A stretch of DNA of 14,949 bases from Bacteroidales bacterium (GTDB lineage Bacteria > Bacteroidota > Bacteroidia > Bacteroidales > SM23-62), in assembly GCA_016783865.1 (NCBI GenBank), contig JADHVS010000105.1, positions 1-14,949 on the forward strand, in the 5' to 3' direction. A program made the translations under genes and the position numbers. This document shows positions 1,677-9,482 of this stretch, piece by piece (position 1 is the stretch's first letter; each line of letters opens with the position of its first letter). The notes below the pieces were generated by a model that saw only the letters and a program-made list of their open reading frames with translations, was not told the DNA's origin and did no database searches.

Positions 1677-1711
1677 CAAAATTAAGATTTTTATTCTGCA
1701 TACTCCAGAAC
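1677..1711 (-). promoter_or_regulatory. Candidate Bacteroidota-type promoter for the PEPC gene
   Basis: On the minus strand TAATTTTG (1684-1677) matches the Bacteroidota -7 consensus TAnnTTTG exactly. The -33 TTTG element is only approximated by TCTG about 21 nt upstream, inside the end of the oxidoreductase gene. The predicted start of transcription would leave a short leader before the ATG at 1651. This is pattern matching in AT-rich DNA and could be chance. Confidence 0.3.
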
Positions 1712-3352
1712 CTGGCCATTCTCGATTAAGCGTTGCCTTATTTCATCATAGGAAAGGTCGTGGATACCAGTCTTTCTTTCTATTGCCATCGCAGCCATTG
1801 TGCCCGCACTTTGCCCCAGTATCATAAAAACCGGTTCCATACGGATCGAGCCAAAGGCTATATGGGAGCTGGAAAGGGCAACCGGTACCAGCAGATTGGG
1901 GCATTCTTCCTTTTTTGGCAGAATAGCGCCCAGTGCGATCCGGTAGGGCTTTGGCGGACGTACTCCAATATCCCCCTCATTTTGAACAAAACCATCCGGT
2001 TTTATGTACCGTTGTGTATTATGTGAATCCATGGTATATGAACCCATCCCGATCGATTCATTAACAGGTTTTTTGTCCATTATCTCATTTTCTGTCATCA
2101 CATATTTCCCGATCATTCTTCGTGCTTCACGAACATAGATCTGATGGGGCCAGTGCCCGTTATCCGGGAACTCATCCTTCGATAAACCCCACTGTTTCAT
2201 TTCGGACCGGACTTCTTCAGGAACACGCGGATCATTGGCAATGAAATACAATAATCCTTTTTGATAGGTCTCGTGTTCTTTTAATATTTCCTTCCGGCGC
2301 TCATAAGTAGCTTCAGGATAGTCATAGTTCATCCCGATGTTATCAAAACTGAATGGACCATGATTATTCACATCGGTTTTTGCATTGGGAATGGGATCAA
2401 ATTTATTGAAGGTTTGTCTCCAGCCGGCATCATAAACCCTTAACAGGAGTTCATATTGGGTGGAATCATAAACCTCTGGCCTGGCAAAGGGTATGCGGTT
2501 TTCTTCAACTTTTGTAAGGCAGGTCCTGAAACAGTAAGCCTGTAATTTATTATCTCCTGCATCTTTTTCACCAGGATGTTCTGTTGAGATCCGGGCCAAA
2601 ACTCCACTGGATGGATCATCCGGAACTACATATGGGCTGATCTGCATGTCACCAAAATGGTGTCCGTGGTGTAAAACACCTACCTGAACACCATCCCACT
2701 CTTCACCATATACCGAATTGGCCTCTCTTCCTACGAAATAATTTACGCCTGCAGCGGCCATCAGGTCACCTTCGTAAGTGGCATCGACGAAGACTTTTCC
2801 TTTATAGGTTTTCCCGCATAATGTGGTGATGGAGATAATTTTACCATTCTTCATTACGACTCCCTTCTCCCTGTTGAGCCACTCATCCCGGTGTACCTCA
2901 ATGTTATATTCCGAGACGAAATCTTCAAATATTTTTTCGGCAATATTAGGTTCGAAGATCCACATGGTCTTAAGGTCACCGTCGATGGCCGGAGTTCCCT
3001 GTCCTGTGTTTCCATATTCTTCCTTCTTCTGCCATTTCCATGTTTCAGGTTTCTGGTAGTACTGGTAAATGCGCTGATAAAACTCCCTGGATAATCCTCC
3101 GATTACCCCTTTGTTTCCGGTATCGGTATAACCCAGTCCTGAAGAAGAGAGTCCGCCTAAATGAATATCGGGACAAACAATGATGACCGATTTACCCATT
3201 TTTATAACCTGGACGGCAGCTGTAATGGCGGCTGAGGTTCCTCCATAAATTATTACATCAGCTGTATTAGCGGGATCATTACCTTTATCATTTATACAAC
3301 CTGTAAGGAGAATCCCAGGAATTACTAACAGGCTCAATAATAGTTTTTTCAT
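1691..3352 (-). CDS. Lipoprotein FAD-dependent oxidoreductase (FAD_oxidored-like)
   Basis: This 553-residue protein begins with a lipoprotein signal peptide whose lipobox is LTGC, placing the lipidated Cys at residue 19, so it is probably membrane-anchored outside the cytoplasm. A Rossmann dinucleotide-binding segment follows at about 31-60, with VIIYGGTSAAITAAV, a beta strand leading into a Gly-rich turn. The segment FVDATYEGDLMAAAGV (188-203) and a C-terminal LGQSAGTMAAMA segment are typical of the FAD-dependent oxidoreductase family (Pfam FAD_oxidored type) often found in Bacteroidota polysaccharide-use loci. Its substrate is unknown; some relatives are loosely annotated as xanthan lyase. 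The ATG overlaps the stop of the upstream small gene (ATGA), which suggests translational coupling. The role in the neighbouring glycan locus is inferred from position only. Confidence 0.85.
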   Translation of the reverse strand: MKKLLLSLLVIPGILLTGCINDKGNDPANTADVIIYGGTSAAITAAVQVIKMGKSVIIVCPDIHLGGLSSSGLGYTDTGNKGVIGGLSREFYQRIYQYYQKPETWKWQKKEEYGNTGQGTPAIDGDLKTMWIFEPNIAEKIFEDFVSEYNIEVHRDEWLNREKGVVMKNGKIISITTLCGKTYKGKVFVDATYEGDLMAAAGVNYFVGREANSVYGEEWDGVQVGVLHHGHHFGDMQISPYVVPDDPSSGVLARISTEHPGEKDAGDNKLQAYCFRTCLTKVEENRIPFARPEVYDSTQYELLLRVYDAGWRQTFNKFDPIPNAKTDVNNHGPFSFDNIGMNYDYPEATYERRKEILKEHETYQKGLLYFIANDPRVPEEVRSEMKQWGLSKDEFPDNGHWPHQIYVREARRMIGKYVMTENEIMDKKPVNESIGMGSYTMDSHNTQRYIKPDGFVQNEGDIGVRPPKPYRIALGAILPKKEECPNLLVPVALSSSHIAFGSIRMEPVFMILGQSAGTMAAMAIERKTGIHDLSYDEIRQRLIENGQVLEYAE

Positions 3353-3956: not shown

Positions 3957-6900
3957 CTATTTCTTAATAAACATATGAGAGGTTTGGCTCTCATTGGAAT
4001 ATATGTTGATTATATAAACACCGGCCGGGTAATCCATTACGTTAATCCTGAGGAGGCCATATTTGTTTTTTTGATTATAAAGATCATTCCCGGTTATATC
4101 TGTAATCCGTATGGTATTTTCTATAAAGGTTTCCGGGATATTCAGATATAAAAGATCATGGACAGGATTCGGCCAGAATTTAATTTTTCCACGATCAGAA
4201 AGCCCTTCCGTATTGTTTTGAATTGCCTGCATGGAAATCTGAATGGTGGTATCTGTCTCCAGGAAGAAATCCCCACCTCGTTGCTCGTAGCCATCCTTCG
4301 TAATCAGATAGCTGTAATAGGCCGCGATTGGAAGATCATCAAAAAGGGCCAGTCCGATTGCATTAGAAAGGACCGAATCTCCATTAACAACAACCAGGGC
4401 ATTGTTGACAGGTGTGATATCTTCTGTCAGATTGAACTTAACATCACCATGGGTTCGGATTAAATAGAAGAGGATTGTTGTATCGGATGTGATGGTTAAG
4501 GTTCCCTGTTCTTCCTGGAAAGATGTCTTATGAAACTGATAATCGAAAGGTCCTGGCGGTAGTGTAAAAAATGCTTCTCCCTGTGTATTTGTTACCTCAC
4601 TATCCGATCCAATGGTGACATTTACTCCCCAGAACGGATCGTTGGTTTTACTATCCAACAGCTTCATGGTGACATTGACAAGATTCTCTGACAGGTATAC
4701 GGTGAGCGTAGTATCGCTGAATATTACTTTTTGCTGTTGTAAGTATGGGAAATACCCTTCTTTATCTATGTTGAGCAGGAAGCTTTCGGGAACCTGATTA
4801 AATAATATCCTGCCAGATCCATCCGTGGTTTTTAATTCGTCGTATATTTCCACATTGCAGCCAGGTATGACTTTACCTGTTCCTGCTTCTTTGACTATAA
4901 TATTAACATTATATGAACCGGTACCCTTTGGTTCGCTCAACCTTCTGTCAAGCTGATCGAGATAAAGTGACCAGGGCCTTAAATCTTCACCCTTTCCCAC
5001 GCCTTCGAGGAAATCTCTGGGTGTAGTATTATAGGAATAACCTCCTGCAGAACCTGAAATTGGGTCTAACAGCACTTCATTGGACGGTCCGGAGGTTCCG
5101 ATAACATATCCCCATCCAAGTTGTCTCGATTCAATAATATAGTTTTTGTTTGGATGATAAGCTTCCCCTTCTGTGTTATAAAATACTGATTGGGTGGAGG
5201 AGTATCCATGAATGGCGCTGCCTCCATAAGGTCTGAAAGTGGACTCAAGATAATCACCATTTATTGTGAAAACATCAAAAAGGTTCGACATGCTCAGGTA
5301 CATATGGAAGTCACTGGAATATTTTGAATTTTCTCCGCGACAATTATGTATTACGTTCCCATTGCTGTAAGGATACTTGAAATCATAATTATGCCTGCTG
5401 TGGTTTGCCCGGCTGTTACTGATCAGGCAATCGTTGGATTGAAGGGTATACATGTATCCGTTTCCTCCTCCTCCTTCATACTGGGGCTTCTGGAAATAGC
5501 ATGAATCGATGGTAATATTGCGACACTGATCCAATAAGAGGCAGTTACTAAGAACATGAATGTCTTCAGAATTAACAGGTGGTTTATAAGTATGTACATT
5601 GTTTACCCAGCAATTTTGAGCGTATTTGAACTGGATCGCATGTGAAAAATGAACATCATAGGCACCGGTCCCGATAGTATTGTATGATTCCTCCTCCCAT
5701 CCCGTTTTTGGATTTTCTTTATTCCCGATCGATAAATGCTCAATACCACATTCACTGATGTGGTTACCTGCATGATACACCCGGGAACTATCCCTGGTCT
5801 TTAGAAAATAGCGCGTAGGTACATCAATGATCAACAGGTTTTTTTCTGCATTGATGGAATCAATACGGCGCATGAAAGCCACTCCTTTAACGGCATCGGC
5901 AGTCCAGATCCCGGCCATCTGATGCTCTTCGATCCACTGTTCAGTGGGGGAGGAGGTAACAATTACATGATCCCCCACATTGAATCCTGCAACCGAATGA
6001 ACAGGGATAATACGGGTTGGTTCAGTGAGGTCAGCAGTTATTTGTGTAACCGTGCCGGTTTGTGAGAACCAGTTGGACCAGTCGCTTCTCACATGAATGA
6101 TGTCTTTTTGCCTCATGAATGTTTCATCGTGGAACAGGAAGGTGGAATCGACCCCTGCACCACGCAGAATGATACTGTCGTATTTTATATGCAAGCCATA
6201 ATCTGAACTGGAAGGAGTTTTGATCCGATAAGTGCCGGCAGGAAGGTAAACCACTCCGCCGCCTGAAGCCCCCACCTCATCCAGGGCTTGCTGGATAATC
6301 GCCGTGACATCATCTATACCGGTGTTATCAGCACTGTAAGGGGATTGGGTAATATTTACAATATTTTGGGTAATGTAAGGTATTTCAGTCTCTCCCTGGT
6401 GGTAACCTGCATATGAAAAATCATGTAAAAATCTTCCCTGGGTGTCTTTATAACCGGGTTTCCAGTTTTCAGGATAAAGGGCACTGCGCCATTCAAAGCT
6501 GGTTACGAAGTTGTGGGATTCAAGGGTTAAAACGTTTGGATTATTGTATACTGCTTTTATATGATCGTCAGAATTTTGATCAAACACCAGGTTGCTCCAT
6601 GACATAAAAAAAAGCCAGGGAGCTTCCTGTGCAAGGCAATCACCTGGTTCCGGGATGGGGCCATTTTCGGTCATGGCAATCAGTTTTTTACCCTGGGTGA
6701 GCCTGTATAAAACGTCGAAGGCATATTTCTGAGTTCCATAGTTATACTCACCAGGATAGGAATCGTGACCAATGATATCGACTTTATTGTTTCCCGGATA
6801 CCAGTCCTCTTCGGGTGTTGACCACACCCAGATCAGGTTATGCAGCTGGTGATGGTTTTTCAGCCGGTCGAACATGATATTGTAAAGTTCTTTACAGGGT

Positions 6901-9482
6901 TCCGGGCCTTTTGCACCCCACCAGAACCATCCTCCGCCGGCTTCATGCAAAGGCCGCCAGAGTATTGGAATACCTGCATCCTGAAATTTCTTCAATTCGG
7001 CAGCGATATCATCAATGTCCCTGATAATGTCATCATATTCCTGTGTGCCCGGTGTAACGGCCAGGGTAATATCGAAAGTGGTTTGATTCGTGTAAAAAGT
7101 ATTGGTTCCGGCCGATCCGCCGCTGGGTGAATGCCAGTGCCACTGGTATGAAATGATTCCCTTTCCTTCGGTAGAGTTATACCAATCGATCAGGGCATCC
7201 ACCGATCCGTCATCGTCTTTGCCGAAAGTGTGTTCGCCATCCACCCACAGGTAAGGGTAGCCTTCTGTAAAATGCTGGAAATCACCTACTCTTAACAGAG
7301 GGGATTTGCCTGTAAGGTTTTTGATATCGGCGTAGTTGCCGTGCGTTTGTCCGGAGATAATTCGTTTGCCAAATTGCAGTCGCAGCAATTCATAAAGCGC
7401 TTCTGTATTTTCTGTAGCTGCTGAATCCACAAGGTCAGGAGCTATATCATAGATGTTTTTAGATGATGTATAAACCATGAATTTATCTATGTCTGTCCAA
7501 CCCCAGTTTTTCCGTACGGTAAAGGTGTTGGAACCTGTCTCCAGCAGATAGCTTCCGGCATCAACGATTTCAAATGAATCGGTTTCCGGGAACCTCACCG
7601 GCGTGGAAAATCCATCGTTGATGATTACATCCTGTGTCTTAGTCCCGTTTGGGCCATTATAACGGATAAGCAGTCTGTATATATCGGTTTCAGGTACAAC
7701 CATAGTAACAGTTACCTTATCTGTGGCCTGATCAAATCCTGTCACATACCCGCTTCCGGAAAATCCCGGATTGCTGTTACCAATAGTAACTCCTGTTAAA
7801 ACTCCATCTTCAGCCTCTGCTTCTGCAACAAGATAACCTGTCTGATAGAAATTTTCTGCCCTTGTAAGGATGAGTGCATGGACAGAAAGGGGAGGAAGAT
7901 CCAGGGTTACCCTGTTGTCCATTAATTCAATTCCGCTGACCTCGAGAGCGTTGCTGCTGTGTGAAATAAAAGTTTCATTTTGGGGCAGATCAGAGAGGGA
8001 ATACATATCATACGTCCCATCCTGCACCGGGTAGTTATTCAGGTTAATTATGGATTGCTTTGACTGGCTTGTATGCCGGTTAACAACAAAGATTGTGATT
8101 GAATCGTTTTCGCCGTTAATGGTAGGATAGGCAGATACAAATTCCTCTTCGGAAGAGGCTGCCCCAATAAAATATTCCTGGCCATACCGGCTGAAAAGAT
8201 GGATCACTTCATCCATGCCGGTCTTCCAGCTCCAGGGTGTAAAAATTTCCACACCTTGTCTGGCAAACTCACCGAGTGTTGAGGCATACCATAATGCAGT
8301 TACATCGGGGTCATCACTGTTGATCCCTGTCTCAGTAACCGAAAATGCAACTCCATGATCCGGCCCCATGTATTGTTCCAGCCAATTCTGGCAGCGCATA
8401 AATATATATTCCTTTGTTATCGAATTGTCCCAGCTCCCCGGTCCGGTCCGTTTTACTCCGTTAGCACCCGGGTAGTCATACGTCATATCGAAATATACCC
8501 GGTGTAGCTGGACGATATCTTCAGGAGCGGTTTCCCCCGGGTAAAAATGTATATCCAGCACATCAAGCAACCGGATCCCTGAGATTTCCTGTTCCTCGGC
8601 TACCCGTCTGATAAAATATTCGAGCCATACATGGTCCCTGCCATCATAATTGATTTTACTACCCTTATAATTATACCATTGCCATTCATTGGCAGGTACA
8701 GGTCCCACCAGTTTAATACCCGGGAATTTTGCACGTGCCTTTTTAGCCACGCTAAAATACATTTGCATGAATGCTTCGGCTGAAGGCTGCACAGGCCATA
8801 CGTCATCATGCGTACCCTCCCAGATCTCGGGTTCATTGTCCATATTCCAGTAACGTATCCTGTTTGAATCAAGACCCCGGCCTCCCTCTCCGAACCAATG
8901 GTCAAGGATCCCTGCAGTGGAATCTGCTGTCCAATCTTCCAGGTAAAGTCCGGGATCACCATCCACCAGGGCATCCTCTCCGCCGTCCGGATTAACCTCT
9001 CCGCCTCCGCAGAGGTTCTGTCTTACACCTTCCCACCACTTGGCCTGGTTGTAATCCCACGAACTGAAATTATAGGCGTTCGTTTTGGCTGCTTTACCGA
9101 TCAGTTGAAATGCCCACATACCCTGGGCTGATGGGATATTTTGCTGAAGTGATTGTGCTGCATATCCCCAATCGTGAGGAAAAACATTATTGTACCAATC
9201 GGGATGACTGGACAATTTCCTTCTCCAGTTATATTTTGTAGAGTTATTTCCACCATTTTCACGGTACATCCTGATTCCCAGGTCACGCAACCGCTGCCAT
9301 TCGGATGCATTTAAGGGACTGCCTGAATTGTCGGACAAACTATTGTTTTTCGCGTAGATATAGAGTGAGATTGGTTTTTGTTCGGATGCCGCATCAATAC
9401 CAATAGTAACGGCTTGCTGTGCAGAACCGTTCTGATAAAAGATAATAAAGCAACAAAAAATTGAAATGAGTGTCTTCAGCAT
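3957..9482 (-). CDS. Giant secreted multi-domain enzyme: GH44 - CBM35 - GH26 - beta-helix - three beta modules - T9SS sorting domain
   Basis: This 1841-residue exported enzyme probably acts on cellulose, xyloglucan and (gluco)mannan. A signal peptide (about 1-22, ending GSAQ) precedes a GH44 domain (about 25-540). RENGGNNSTKYNW (74-86) is typical of GH44. YWNMDNEPEIW gives the likely acid/base Glu217, and FSVTETG the likely nucleophile Glu384. A CBM35-like module (about 550-672) carries WGWTDIDKF. A GH26 beta-mannanase follows (about 690-995), with WRPLHEAGGGWFWWG (acid/base Glu847) and AMTENGP (nucleophile Glu939). Next is a right-handed beta-helix (about 1018-1515) opening FSYAGYHQGETEIP and containing GGGVVYLPAGTYRI, as in pectate-lyase-3/GH28-like proteins; its activity is unknown. 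Three carboxypeptidase-regulatory or CnaB-like modules (about 1523-1752) lead to a T9SS type A tail (about 1762-1841: FWPNPVHD, PAGVYIINIY). The ATG at 9482 is preferred over an in-frame TTG at 9503 because AAGGA sits 8 nt before it and the signal peptide follows directly. GH44 plus GH26 is known from Paenibacillus Cel44C-Man26A; the beta-helix and T9SS additions are unusual. Confidence 0.93.
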   Translation of the reverse strand: MLKTLISIFCCFIIFYQNGSAQQAVTIGIDAASEQKPISLYIYAKNNSLSDNSGSPLNASEWQRLRDLGIRMYRENGGNNSTKYNWRRKLSSHPDWYNNVFPHDWGYAAQSLQQNIPSAQGMWAFQLIGKAAKTNAYNFSSWDYNQAKWWEGVRQNLCGGGEVNPDGGEDALVDGDPGLYLEDWTADSTAGILDHWFGEGGRGLDSNRIRYWNMDNEPEIWEGTHDDVWPVQPSAEAFMQMYFSVAKKARAKFPGIKLVGPVPANEWQWYNYKGSKINYDGRDHVWLEYFIRRVAEEQEISGIRLLDVLDIHFYPGETAPEDIVQLHRVYFDMTYDYPGANGVKRTGPGSWDNSITKEYIFMRCQNWLEQYMGPDHGVAFSVTETGINSDDPDVTALWYASTLGEFARQGVEIFTPWSWKTGMDEVIHLFSRYGQEYFIGAASSEEEFVSAYPTINGENDSITIFVVNRHTSQSKQSIINLNNYPVQDGTYDMYSLSDLPQNETFISHSSNALEVSGIELMDNRVTLDLPPLSVHALILTRAENFYQTGYLVAEAEAEDGVLTGVTIGNSNPGFSGSGYVTGFDQATDKVTVTMVVPETDIYRLLIRYNGPNGTKTQDVIINDGFSTPVRFPETDSFEIVDAGSYLLETGSNTFTVRKNWGWTDIDKFMVYTSSKNIYDIAPDLVDSAATENTEALYELLRLQFGKRIISGQTHGNYADIKNLTGKSPLLRVGDFQHFTEGYPYLWVDGEHTFGKDDDGSVDALIDWYNSTEGKGIISYQWHWHSPSGGSAGTNTFYTNQTTFDITLAVTPGTQEYDDIIRDIDDIAAELKKFQDAGIPILWRPLHEAGGGWFWWGAKGPEPCKELYNIMFDRLKNHHQLHNLIWVWSTPEEDWYPGNNKVDIIGHDSYPGEYNYGTQKYAFDVLYRLTQGKKLIAMTENGPIPEPGDCLAQEAPWLFFMSWSNLVFDQNSDDHIKAVYNNPNVLTLESHNFVTSFEWRSALYPENWKPGYKDTQGRFLHDFSYAGYHQGETEIPYITQNIVNITQSPYSADNTGIDDVTAIIQQALDEVGASGGGVVYLPAGTYRIKTPSSSDYGLHIKYDSIILRGAGVDSTFLFHDETFMRQKDIIHVRSDWSNWFSQTGTVTQITADLTEPTRIIPVHSVAGFNVGDHVIVTSSPTEQWIEEHQMAGIWTADAVKGVAFMRRIDSINAEKNLLIIDVPTRYFLKTRDSSRVYHAGNHISECGIEHLSIGNKENPKTGWEEESYNTIGTGAYDVHFSHAIQFKYAQNCWVNNVHTYKPPVNSEDIHVLSNCLLLDQCRNITIDSCYFQKPQYEGGGGNGYMYTLQSNDCLISNSRANHSRHNYDFKYPYSNGNVIHNCRGENSKYSSDFHMYLSMSNLFDVFTINGDYLESTFRPYGGSAIHGYSSTQSVFYNTEGEAYHPNKNYIIESRQLGWGYVIGTSGPSNEVLLDPISGSAGGYSYNTTPRDFLEGVGKGEDLRPWSLYLDQLDRRLSEPKGTGSYNVNIIVKEAGTGKVIPGCNVEIYDELKTTDGSGRILFNQVPESFLLNIDKEGYFPYLQQQKVIFSDTTLTVYLSENLVNVTMKLLDSKTNDPFWGVNVTIGSDSEVTNTQGEAFFTLPPGPFDYQFHKTSFQEEQGTLTITSDTTILFYLIRTHGDVKFNLTEDITPVNNALVVVNGDSVLSNAIGLALFDDLPIAAYYSYLITKDGYEQRGGDFFLETDTTIQISMQAIQNNTEGLSDRGKIKFWPNPVHDLLYLNIPETFIENTIRITDITGNDLYNQKNKYGLLRINVMDYPAGVYIINIYSNESQTSHMFIKK

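Follow-up and report, generated by a model that had tools for sequence, protein, structure and literature searches.

Chains that join several polysaccharide-degrading modules have been described from Bacteroidota and from the Gram-positive genus Paenibacillus, and we compare them here with a long open reading frame (ORF) at 3957..9482 of a 14,949-nucleotide contig of a Bacteroidales bacterium (JADHVS010000105.1; "the window" denotes this whole stretch). Judged by its sequence, the ORF is one chain joining domains of glycoside hydrolase (GH) family 44, carbohydrate-binding module (CBM) family 35 and GH26 with a beta-helix, and it ends in a tail for the type IX secretion system (T9SS). CelAly of Aquimarina sp. 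2-A2, published in May 2026, carries a GH5_2 domain, a beta-helix alginate lyase of polysaccharide lyase (PL) family 31, a T9SS tail and, besides these, accessory beta domains; the two activities were demonstrated by experiment, active-site mutants included, and the accompanying survey distinguishes four GH plus alginate-lyase types (PMC13235733). The terms GH44 and GH26 are absent from the main text of that paper. The window's chain is like CelAly in carrying a predicted beta-1,4-glucanase, a beta-helix module and a T9SS tail, but differs in having GH44 and CBM35-GH26 rather than GH5_2, and its beta-helix is not detectably PL31 by sequence.

Paenibacillus polymyxa Cel44C-Man26A combines GH44 and GH26 on one chain, as a preceding sequence-only reading of the window had stated, and a chain of A18 (WP_017427072.1) is listed with GH26, GH44, CBM3 and CBM35 (PMC5473887, Table 1). 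These chains share GH44 and GH26 with the window's chain, and the A18 chain shares CBM35 too; they differ in their CBM3, and the sections of PMC5473887 drawn on here name neither a beta-helix nor a T9SS tail. 'Candidatus Paraporphyromonas polyenzymogenes' has multi-modular T9SS cellulases with GH5-GH5 and other combinations (PMC5831590), which resemble the window's chain in coming from Bacteroidetes, in having several catalytic domains per chain and in their T9SS tails; unlike in the window's chain, GH44 does not figure in the main text of that paper. Neither a GH44-GH26-beta-helix T9SS chain nor the beta-helix family was found in the open-licence PMC papers searched. PaMan26A (3zm8), presumably from Podospora anserina, has the same CBM35-GH26 arrangement, but only these two modules. 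The architecture is thus ordinary in kind, and what is new is the joining of these four modules and the family of the beta-helix.

Residues are numbered along the window's own chain (P0001; relatives and loci bear the labels P0xxx, L0xx and Gxxx of this analysis) from a TTG, so that residue n of the sequence-only reading is n+7 here. That reading had placed the ORF correctly and left its strand unsaid: it is the minus strand, which is open from end to end, and the plus strand of 3957..9482 is rich in stops. Pfam matches, judged against curated cut-offs, bore out the proposed modules: GH44 (residues 102-322, 3.6e-23, 83.1 against 25.1 bits), CBM35 (562-677, 1.2e-23, 84.1 against 28 bits), GH26 (692-993, 1.3e-59, 202.6 against 20.2 bits), the beta-helix (Pect-lyase_RHGA_epim, 1056-1130, 4e-9, above cut-off) and the sorting domain (Por_Secre_tail, PF18962, 1777-1843, 2.1e-8, 34.8 against 27 bits; TIGR04183, 34.5 against 23 bits). 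Failure of the GH44 or GH26 profiles had been named beforehand as a refutation, and both families were assigned. The GH44 domain is wider than its Pfam span, with 2yih (CEL44C) matching residues 26-549 and 3ii1 matching 70-543 in the PDB search. The best PDB match of the GH26 domain is the mannanase 3zm8, which covers CBM35 and GH26 in one stretch (562-996, 322 bits). The two catalytic pairs that had been called intact (Glu217/Glu384 and Glu847/Glu939) lie in the expected motifs after the seven-residue shift and are conserved: position 224 is Glu in 51 of 53 relative rows (the other two are truncated and gapped there), position 391 in 53 of 53, and positions 854 and 946 in 118 of 118 relatives each. 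At about residues 796-805 of the GH26 domain, SAGTNTFY is aligned to KWWSGFY of 3zm8; the Trp pair, which we take to shape a distal subsite, is missing, and the binding mode may differ from that of PaMan26A.

A search of 5.8 billion proteins, with 7,992 candidates scored, gave 156 hits at 1e-10, and the 120 listed among these relatives were sorted by BLAST of the separate modules. Thirty-nine, the window's protein included, have GH44-CBM35-GH26-beta-helix in that order, with 53-82% identity between the window's chain and each of the other 38. Length is 1828-1871 residues in 36 of the 39, the other three being shorter with a partial GH44, and the beta-helix starts 11 residues past the end of the GH26 match with identical spacing in all 39. 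The remaining combinations were CBM35-GH26-beta-helix (48 chains), GH26-beta-helix (18), GH44-CBM35-GH26 (12), GH44-GH26 (2) and GH44-beta-helix (1). A 118-row tree built on the GH26 domain has 2 changes of state for the beta-helix and 14 for GH44; GH44 presence changes 15 times in another tree, and 9 times in a tree limited to GH26-beta-helix chains with a signal-like N-terminus (85 rows kept; 20 dropped for want of a clear N-terminal signal or for a short GH26 piece). All are FastTree trees, some of their rows are possibly truncated genes, and the changes are counted without direction. Given 2 against 14 changes, the constant part of these chains is, as far as sequences tell, the GH26-beta-helix core, with GH44 as the variable module. 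At one locus (L031, 7808-11766) the CBM35-GH26-beta-helix gene lies in two overlapping ORFs and is broken in that assembly.

The beta-helix was predicted by AlphaFold2 (AF2) with a mean predicted local distance difference test (pLDDT) score of 95.7. The nearest folds are alginate epimerase/lyases, AlgE-type enzymes among them, which rank above GH28; this comparison, made via VIA-align, shows Foldseek's own matches only, and families absent from it are not thereby excluded. By sequence the module has 939 relatives at E <= 1e-5, and secreted members with no other catalytic domain listed occur among the 120 listed of these. No assigned function for the family was found in Pfam, NCBIfam or the PDB, and a further search gave no function-telling name among 120 listed of 1988 matches. 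Membership in two known lyase families was considered, on account of the fold and the NCBIfam match, and not adopted. BT3328 is a PL29 glycosaminoglycan lyase (PMC9067506); its NCBIfam model, BT_3328_fam, matches part of the beta-helix with 42.4 bits against a cut-off of 1100, and six stand-alone relatives with 51-76 bits. The solved PL31 lyase 6kfn was not detected at E up to 1, whether with a single sequence or a profile. Sequence likeness to AlgE-type enzymes is confined to the first rungs, and the motif YG(F/I)DPH(D/E) of AlgE-type mannuronan C5-epimerase/lyases (PMC8824271) is absent from P0001 by pattern search; the chain contains no DPH at all. The spacing of R1370-H1371-x-x-D1374-x-K1376 recalls that of R148-Y149-x-x-D152-x-H154 in AlgE7 (numbered as in PMC8824271), a likeness on which we do not rely because D1314-x-H1316 is equally possible and there is no residue-level superposition. 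Nor was a fixed packing of GH26 against the beta-helix obtained: the AF2 model of CBM35-GH26-beta-helix (970 residues) had a pLDDT of 83.9 and a predicted template modelling (pTM) score of 0.60. One relative of the beta-helix (P0221) bears a dockerin (PF00404), which places this member of the family in a probable cellulosome setting. When relatives were sought among viral contigs, 94 stretches matched a pattern and none was confirmed; among plasmids there were two partial matches in Sandaracinus, covering 35% of the query.

Conservation and natural losses point to one part of this module. In a set of 91 sequences (the window, the stand-alone relatives and seven distant ones, four of them at 28-31% identity) H1285, Y1350, R1370, H1371, H1400, D1410 and H1432 are invariant, and D1374 is kept in 76. 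Among the 106 fused chains, the window's included, six (P0020, P0040, P0041, P0042, P0045 and P0053) no longer have 4-9 of a set of ten residues, which was picked after conservation and losses were known, with their glycosidases kept (56-69% identity in GH44, 65-77% in GH26). The window's beta-helix has all ten, as do 92 of the remaining 99 chains outside the six, the other 7 differing at H1316 only. Counted over polar columns with 99% conservation in the other rows, changes in the 100 remaining fused rows have a median of 0 and a maximum of 3. When 161 columns at least 97% conserved in those 100 rows were considered, the changes crowded into residues 1274-1432 in each of the six chains, with p from 1.7e-4 to 3.6e-10, values that flatter the effect since the interval was set from the same changes. 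H1400 is altered in all six, and H1285, Y1350, D1374, D1398 and R1424 in five. P0020 is the cleanest case: its module is still 68% identical and has Y1350I, D1374N, D1398N and H1400Q, with 9 of 64 columns changed inside the interval and 0 of 97 outside. Three of the chains (P0041, P0042 and P0045) cluster on the tree, and the six losses are not all independent. The joint loss of a His/Tyr/Asp/Arg patch with the glycosidases kept marks out a putative active site, and such a loss would be expected of a decayed enzyme. A His/Tyr beta-elimination chemistry has been described (PMC9410043), and the His/Tyr/Arg make-up of the patch would suit it. All chains with joint loss bear GH44 (6 of 40 GH44-bearing rows against 0 of 66 without).

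We also fetched the flanks of 24 loci, nine with a fused or T9SS-tailed beta-helix and 15 non-fused; Pfam was run on 30 neighbouring proteins, and the rest were inspected visually or through tblastn with selected queries. Among the 15 non-fused loci, six have a GH88 gene within 10 kb, where 0.24 genes were expected. It lies 28-103 bp away in four loci of one Hymenobacter-like clade, 1.7 kb away in G068 (its only GH88) and 8.6 kb away in G194; in a seventh locus, G259, the distance is 10.04 kb. The four Hymenobacter-like loci also have, in the fetched stretches, a PL14-like gene (in three) and a PF05426 gene (in two). Of the four distant loci, L065 has a pair of PF14592 (PL6-type) genes together with a cupin and a protein that resembles heparinase II/III and alginate lyase; L068 has PF14592, PF05426 and GH88-GH2; L066 has GH88, UxaC and 2-keto-3-deoxy-6-phosphogluconate (KDPG) aldolase; and L067 has, by eye, a GH28-like gene. 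The GH88 and lyase neighbours of non-fused and distant relatives favour a uronate lyase, and suggest that the substrate, for which the sequence-only reading had proposed a mixed polymer such as glucomannan next to cellulose, may have an acidic component too.

The nine loci nearest the window's type, which we call Bacteroidales-type after the source names of the similar proteins P0017 and P0025, have a different set of neighbours. Four of them (L033, L062, L063 and L064) reach a contig end. A SusC/SusD pair, 58-63% similar between loci, occurs in five of the nine, the query locus included; GH20 occurs in three, sulfatase in two plus a fragment, and acetylesterase in one.

On these grounds we lean, with no great margin of confidence, towards the view that the chain is a T9SS-exported multi-enzyme whose beta-helix would be a third catalytic module, a lyase (or epimerase) directed at a uronic polymer. 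A bolder version, which we put forward tentatively and at somewhat less than even chances, is that the beta-helix is the first described member of a new family of lyases or polymer-level epimerases, stand-alone or fused, that would cut a uronic polymer physically tied to beta-mannan and beta-glucan, with a GH26-beta-helix core to which GH44 was repeatedly added or lost. Domain identity, the catalytic Glu pairs, the T9SS tail, conservation and module order are read from the sequence; we infer each activity, the lyase chemistry, the substrate and where the chain is located. Several observations weigh against a lyase. Likeness in beta-helix fold does not reveal function, and several kinds of phage tailspike also match this one. 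The score for PL29 falls a long way short of that family's cut-off, and at this pTM value we claim no fixed packing despite the short junction. GH88 occurs in none of the nine fetched fused or T9SS-tailed stretches (a contig end truncates four of them; chance expectation 0.12), all nine genomes holding 1-6 GH88 genes elsewhere, so that the loci closest to the window add nothing to the case for a uronate lyase. Four of the six GH88-linked loci belong to one clade. GH88 is missing within 11 kb in eight of the 15 non-fused loci, L065 with its PL6-type genes among them; in the other seven no lyase was recognised among neighbours that were partly scanned, two of them (L058 and L028) being contigs of 3.5 and 5.0 kb with incomplete context.

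The lost residues D1374 and D1398 would also suit a hydrolase, and a beta-helix with GH28- or GH110-like chemistry, acting on a neutral or galacturonic polymer beside GH44 and GH26, is an unlikely but serious alternative: GH28 folds rank below the epimerase/lyase folds, D1374 is kept in 76 of 91 sequences whereas H1285, Y1350, R1370, H1371, H1400 and H1432 are kept in 91 each, and several non-fused relatives adjoin GH88 and lyase genes. We give a somewhat lower chance to a non-catalytic module that binds or spaces in the fused chains. The six chains in which residues are lost and the module persists, with GH44 and GH26 conserved, do indicate that catalysis is dispensable at least there, and the module is absent from 14 of the 54 GH44-bearing chains among those listed; against this stand the intact site in the window's copy and in almost all chains outside the six, the near absence of polar changes in them, and the secreted members with no other listed catalytic domain. 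The idea that separate genes were joined into a chimera by the assembly, for which only the unusual length of the chain might speak, is practically refuted by 38 independent relatives with the same module order, by the equal GH26/beta-helix spacing and by a GC content that drifts gradually from 0.38 to 0.48 across the ORF with no abrupt break.

On the reading we favour, T9SS would export the chain to the cell surface or release it; GH44 would act on beta-1,4-glucan, either cellulose-like or xyloglucan; beta-mannan would be held and cut by the CBM35-GH26 pair; and the beta-helix would attack a uronic-acid-containing polymer by beta-elimination at a His/Tyr-type site or, in a close variant, act as a polymer C5-epimerase. 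Together with its upstream partners (see below) the chain might open a mixed wall of intermeshed neutral and acidic polymers, and the freed oligosaccharides could be imported by SusC/D pairs like those of related loci. Neutral-glycan hydrolases and a lyase on one exported chain are a recently described route of Bacteroidota into composite cell walls (PMC13235733), and the window's chain pairs different hydrolases with a beta-helix family of 939 relatives. A lyase would make this a new PL family and imply an acidic component beside mannan and glucan in the substrate; otherwise it would be a new hydrolase or binding family. The beta-helix is the least known and most testable part of the chain, and its naturally altered copies single out particular residues.

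Table 1. Features of the window, with their coordinates and the evidence for each (residues of P0001 unless another protein is named)
Feature	Position	Strand	Basis
Whole ORF, 1841 residues	3957..9482	-	ATG at 9482; TTG-first ORF from 9503
Signal-peptide-like N-terminus, 8-29	9417..9482	-	Hydrophobic by eye and by a crude hydropathy test
GH44 domain, 29-550	7854..9419	-	Pfam PF12891; 3ii1 and 2yih by phmmer
GH44 predicted catalytic Glu224	8834-8832	-	Expected motif, conserved in relatives
GH44 predicted catalytic Glu391	8333-8331	-	Expected motif, conserved in relatives
CBM35, 562-677	7473..7820	-	Pfam PF16990; continuous match with GH26 to 3zm8
GH26 domain, 692-993	6525..7430	-	Pfam PF02156; 3zm8 PaMan26A, 322 bits
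GH26 predicted catalytic Glu854	6944-6942	-	Conserved in relatives
GH26 predicted catalytic Glu946	6668-6666	-	Conserved in relatives
Beta-helix module, 1004-1520	4944..6494	-	PF12708 on first part, AF2, fold matches
Putative active-site stretch of beta-helix, H1285 to H1432	5208..5651	-	Conservation and joint loss in six relatives
Linker, probably carboxypeptidase-regulatory-like repeats, about 1530-1765	4209..4916	-	Inferred from precomputed PF13620 matches of some relatives
T9SS type A sorting domain, 1777-1848	3957..4175	-	PF18962, TIGR04183
GH5 endoglucanase gene, P0002	9487..10452	-	4 bp upstream of P0001
Lamin-tail-like/T9SS protein gene, P0003, 1312 residues	10531..14469	-	78 bp upstream of P0002
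Flavin adenine dinucleotide (FAD)-dependent oxidoreductase	1691-3352	-	PF12831

The genes for P0003, P0002 and P0001 share one orientation and are separated by 78 and 4 bp, an operon-like arrangement. The nearest solved structures to P0002 are GH5 cellulases (5i2u, 1.3e-118), and a P0002-like GH5 (64% identity) occurs in two of the nine fused or T9SS-tailed loci, with other GH5 genes in four. P0003 has a T9SS tail and a lamin-tail-like stretch just below the cut-off (30.9 against 34.3 bits); in the PDB its sole match at E <= 1 is a weak one of its sorting domain. It has homologs (43-46% identity by tblastn) in eight of the nine loci and is possibly a surface partner. With these two genes upstream, the description of the chain as a self-contained machine becomes doubtful, and the impression that GH44-GH26 fusions rarely carry a beta-helix and a T9SS tail is not borne out in that form, given the 38 other four-module proteins and the published GH5 chain with a beta-helix lyase and a T9SS tail (PMC13235733). 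Consistent with a chain that would work apart from a scaffoldin, P0001 shows no dockerin match at E up to 0.1, and neither dockerin nor cohesin was found by Pfam in the six window proteins scanned.

In the linker of the window's own chain Pfam gave no match. Scans of the window with Rfam and for tRNA and tandem repeats returned nothing, and those for promoters (27 found against 29.3 in shuffles) and terminators (15 against 10.6) were uninformative. Downstream of P0001 lie genes for a 136-residue protein with no Pfam match, the FAD-dependent oxidoreductase, which has no tblastn counterpart in the 24 other loci, and a phosphoenolpyruvate carboxylase; these look unrelated to the cluster.

Two further families recur at the loci of relatives. 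One, of 435-436 residues, stands beside the beta-helix genes of L032 (6924-8231) and L031 (11777-13087), with 69% mutual identity; neither member has a Pfam match, and the one searched has no PDB match. The other, of 224-275 residues (L023 11751-12578, L029 6026-6715, L062 186-860 and L063 4530-6011), gave no Pfam match in the three members scanned and, at 25-28% identity, ties the Hymenobacter-like lyase loci to the GH20-bearing loci.
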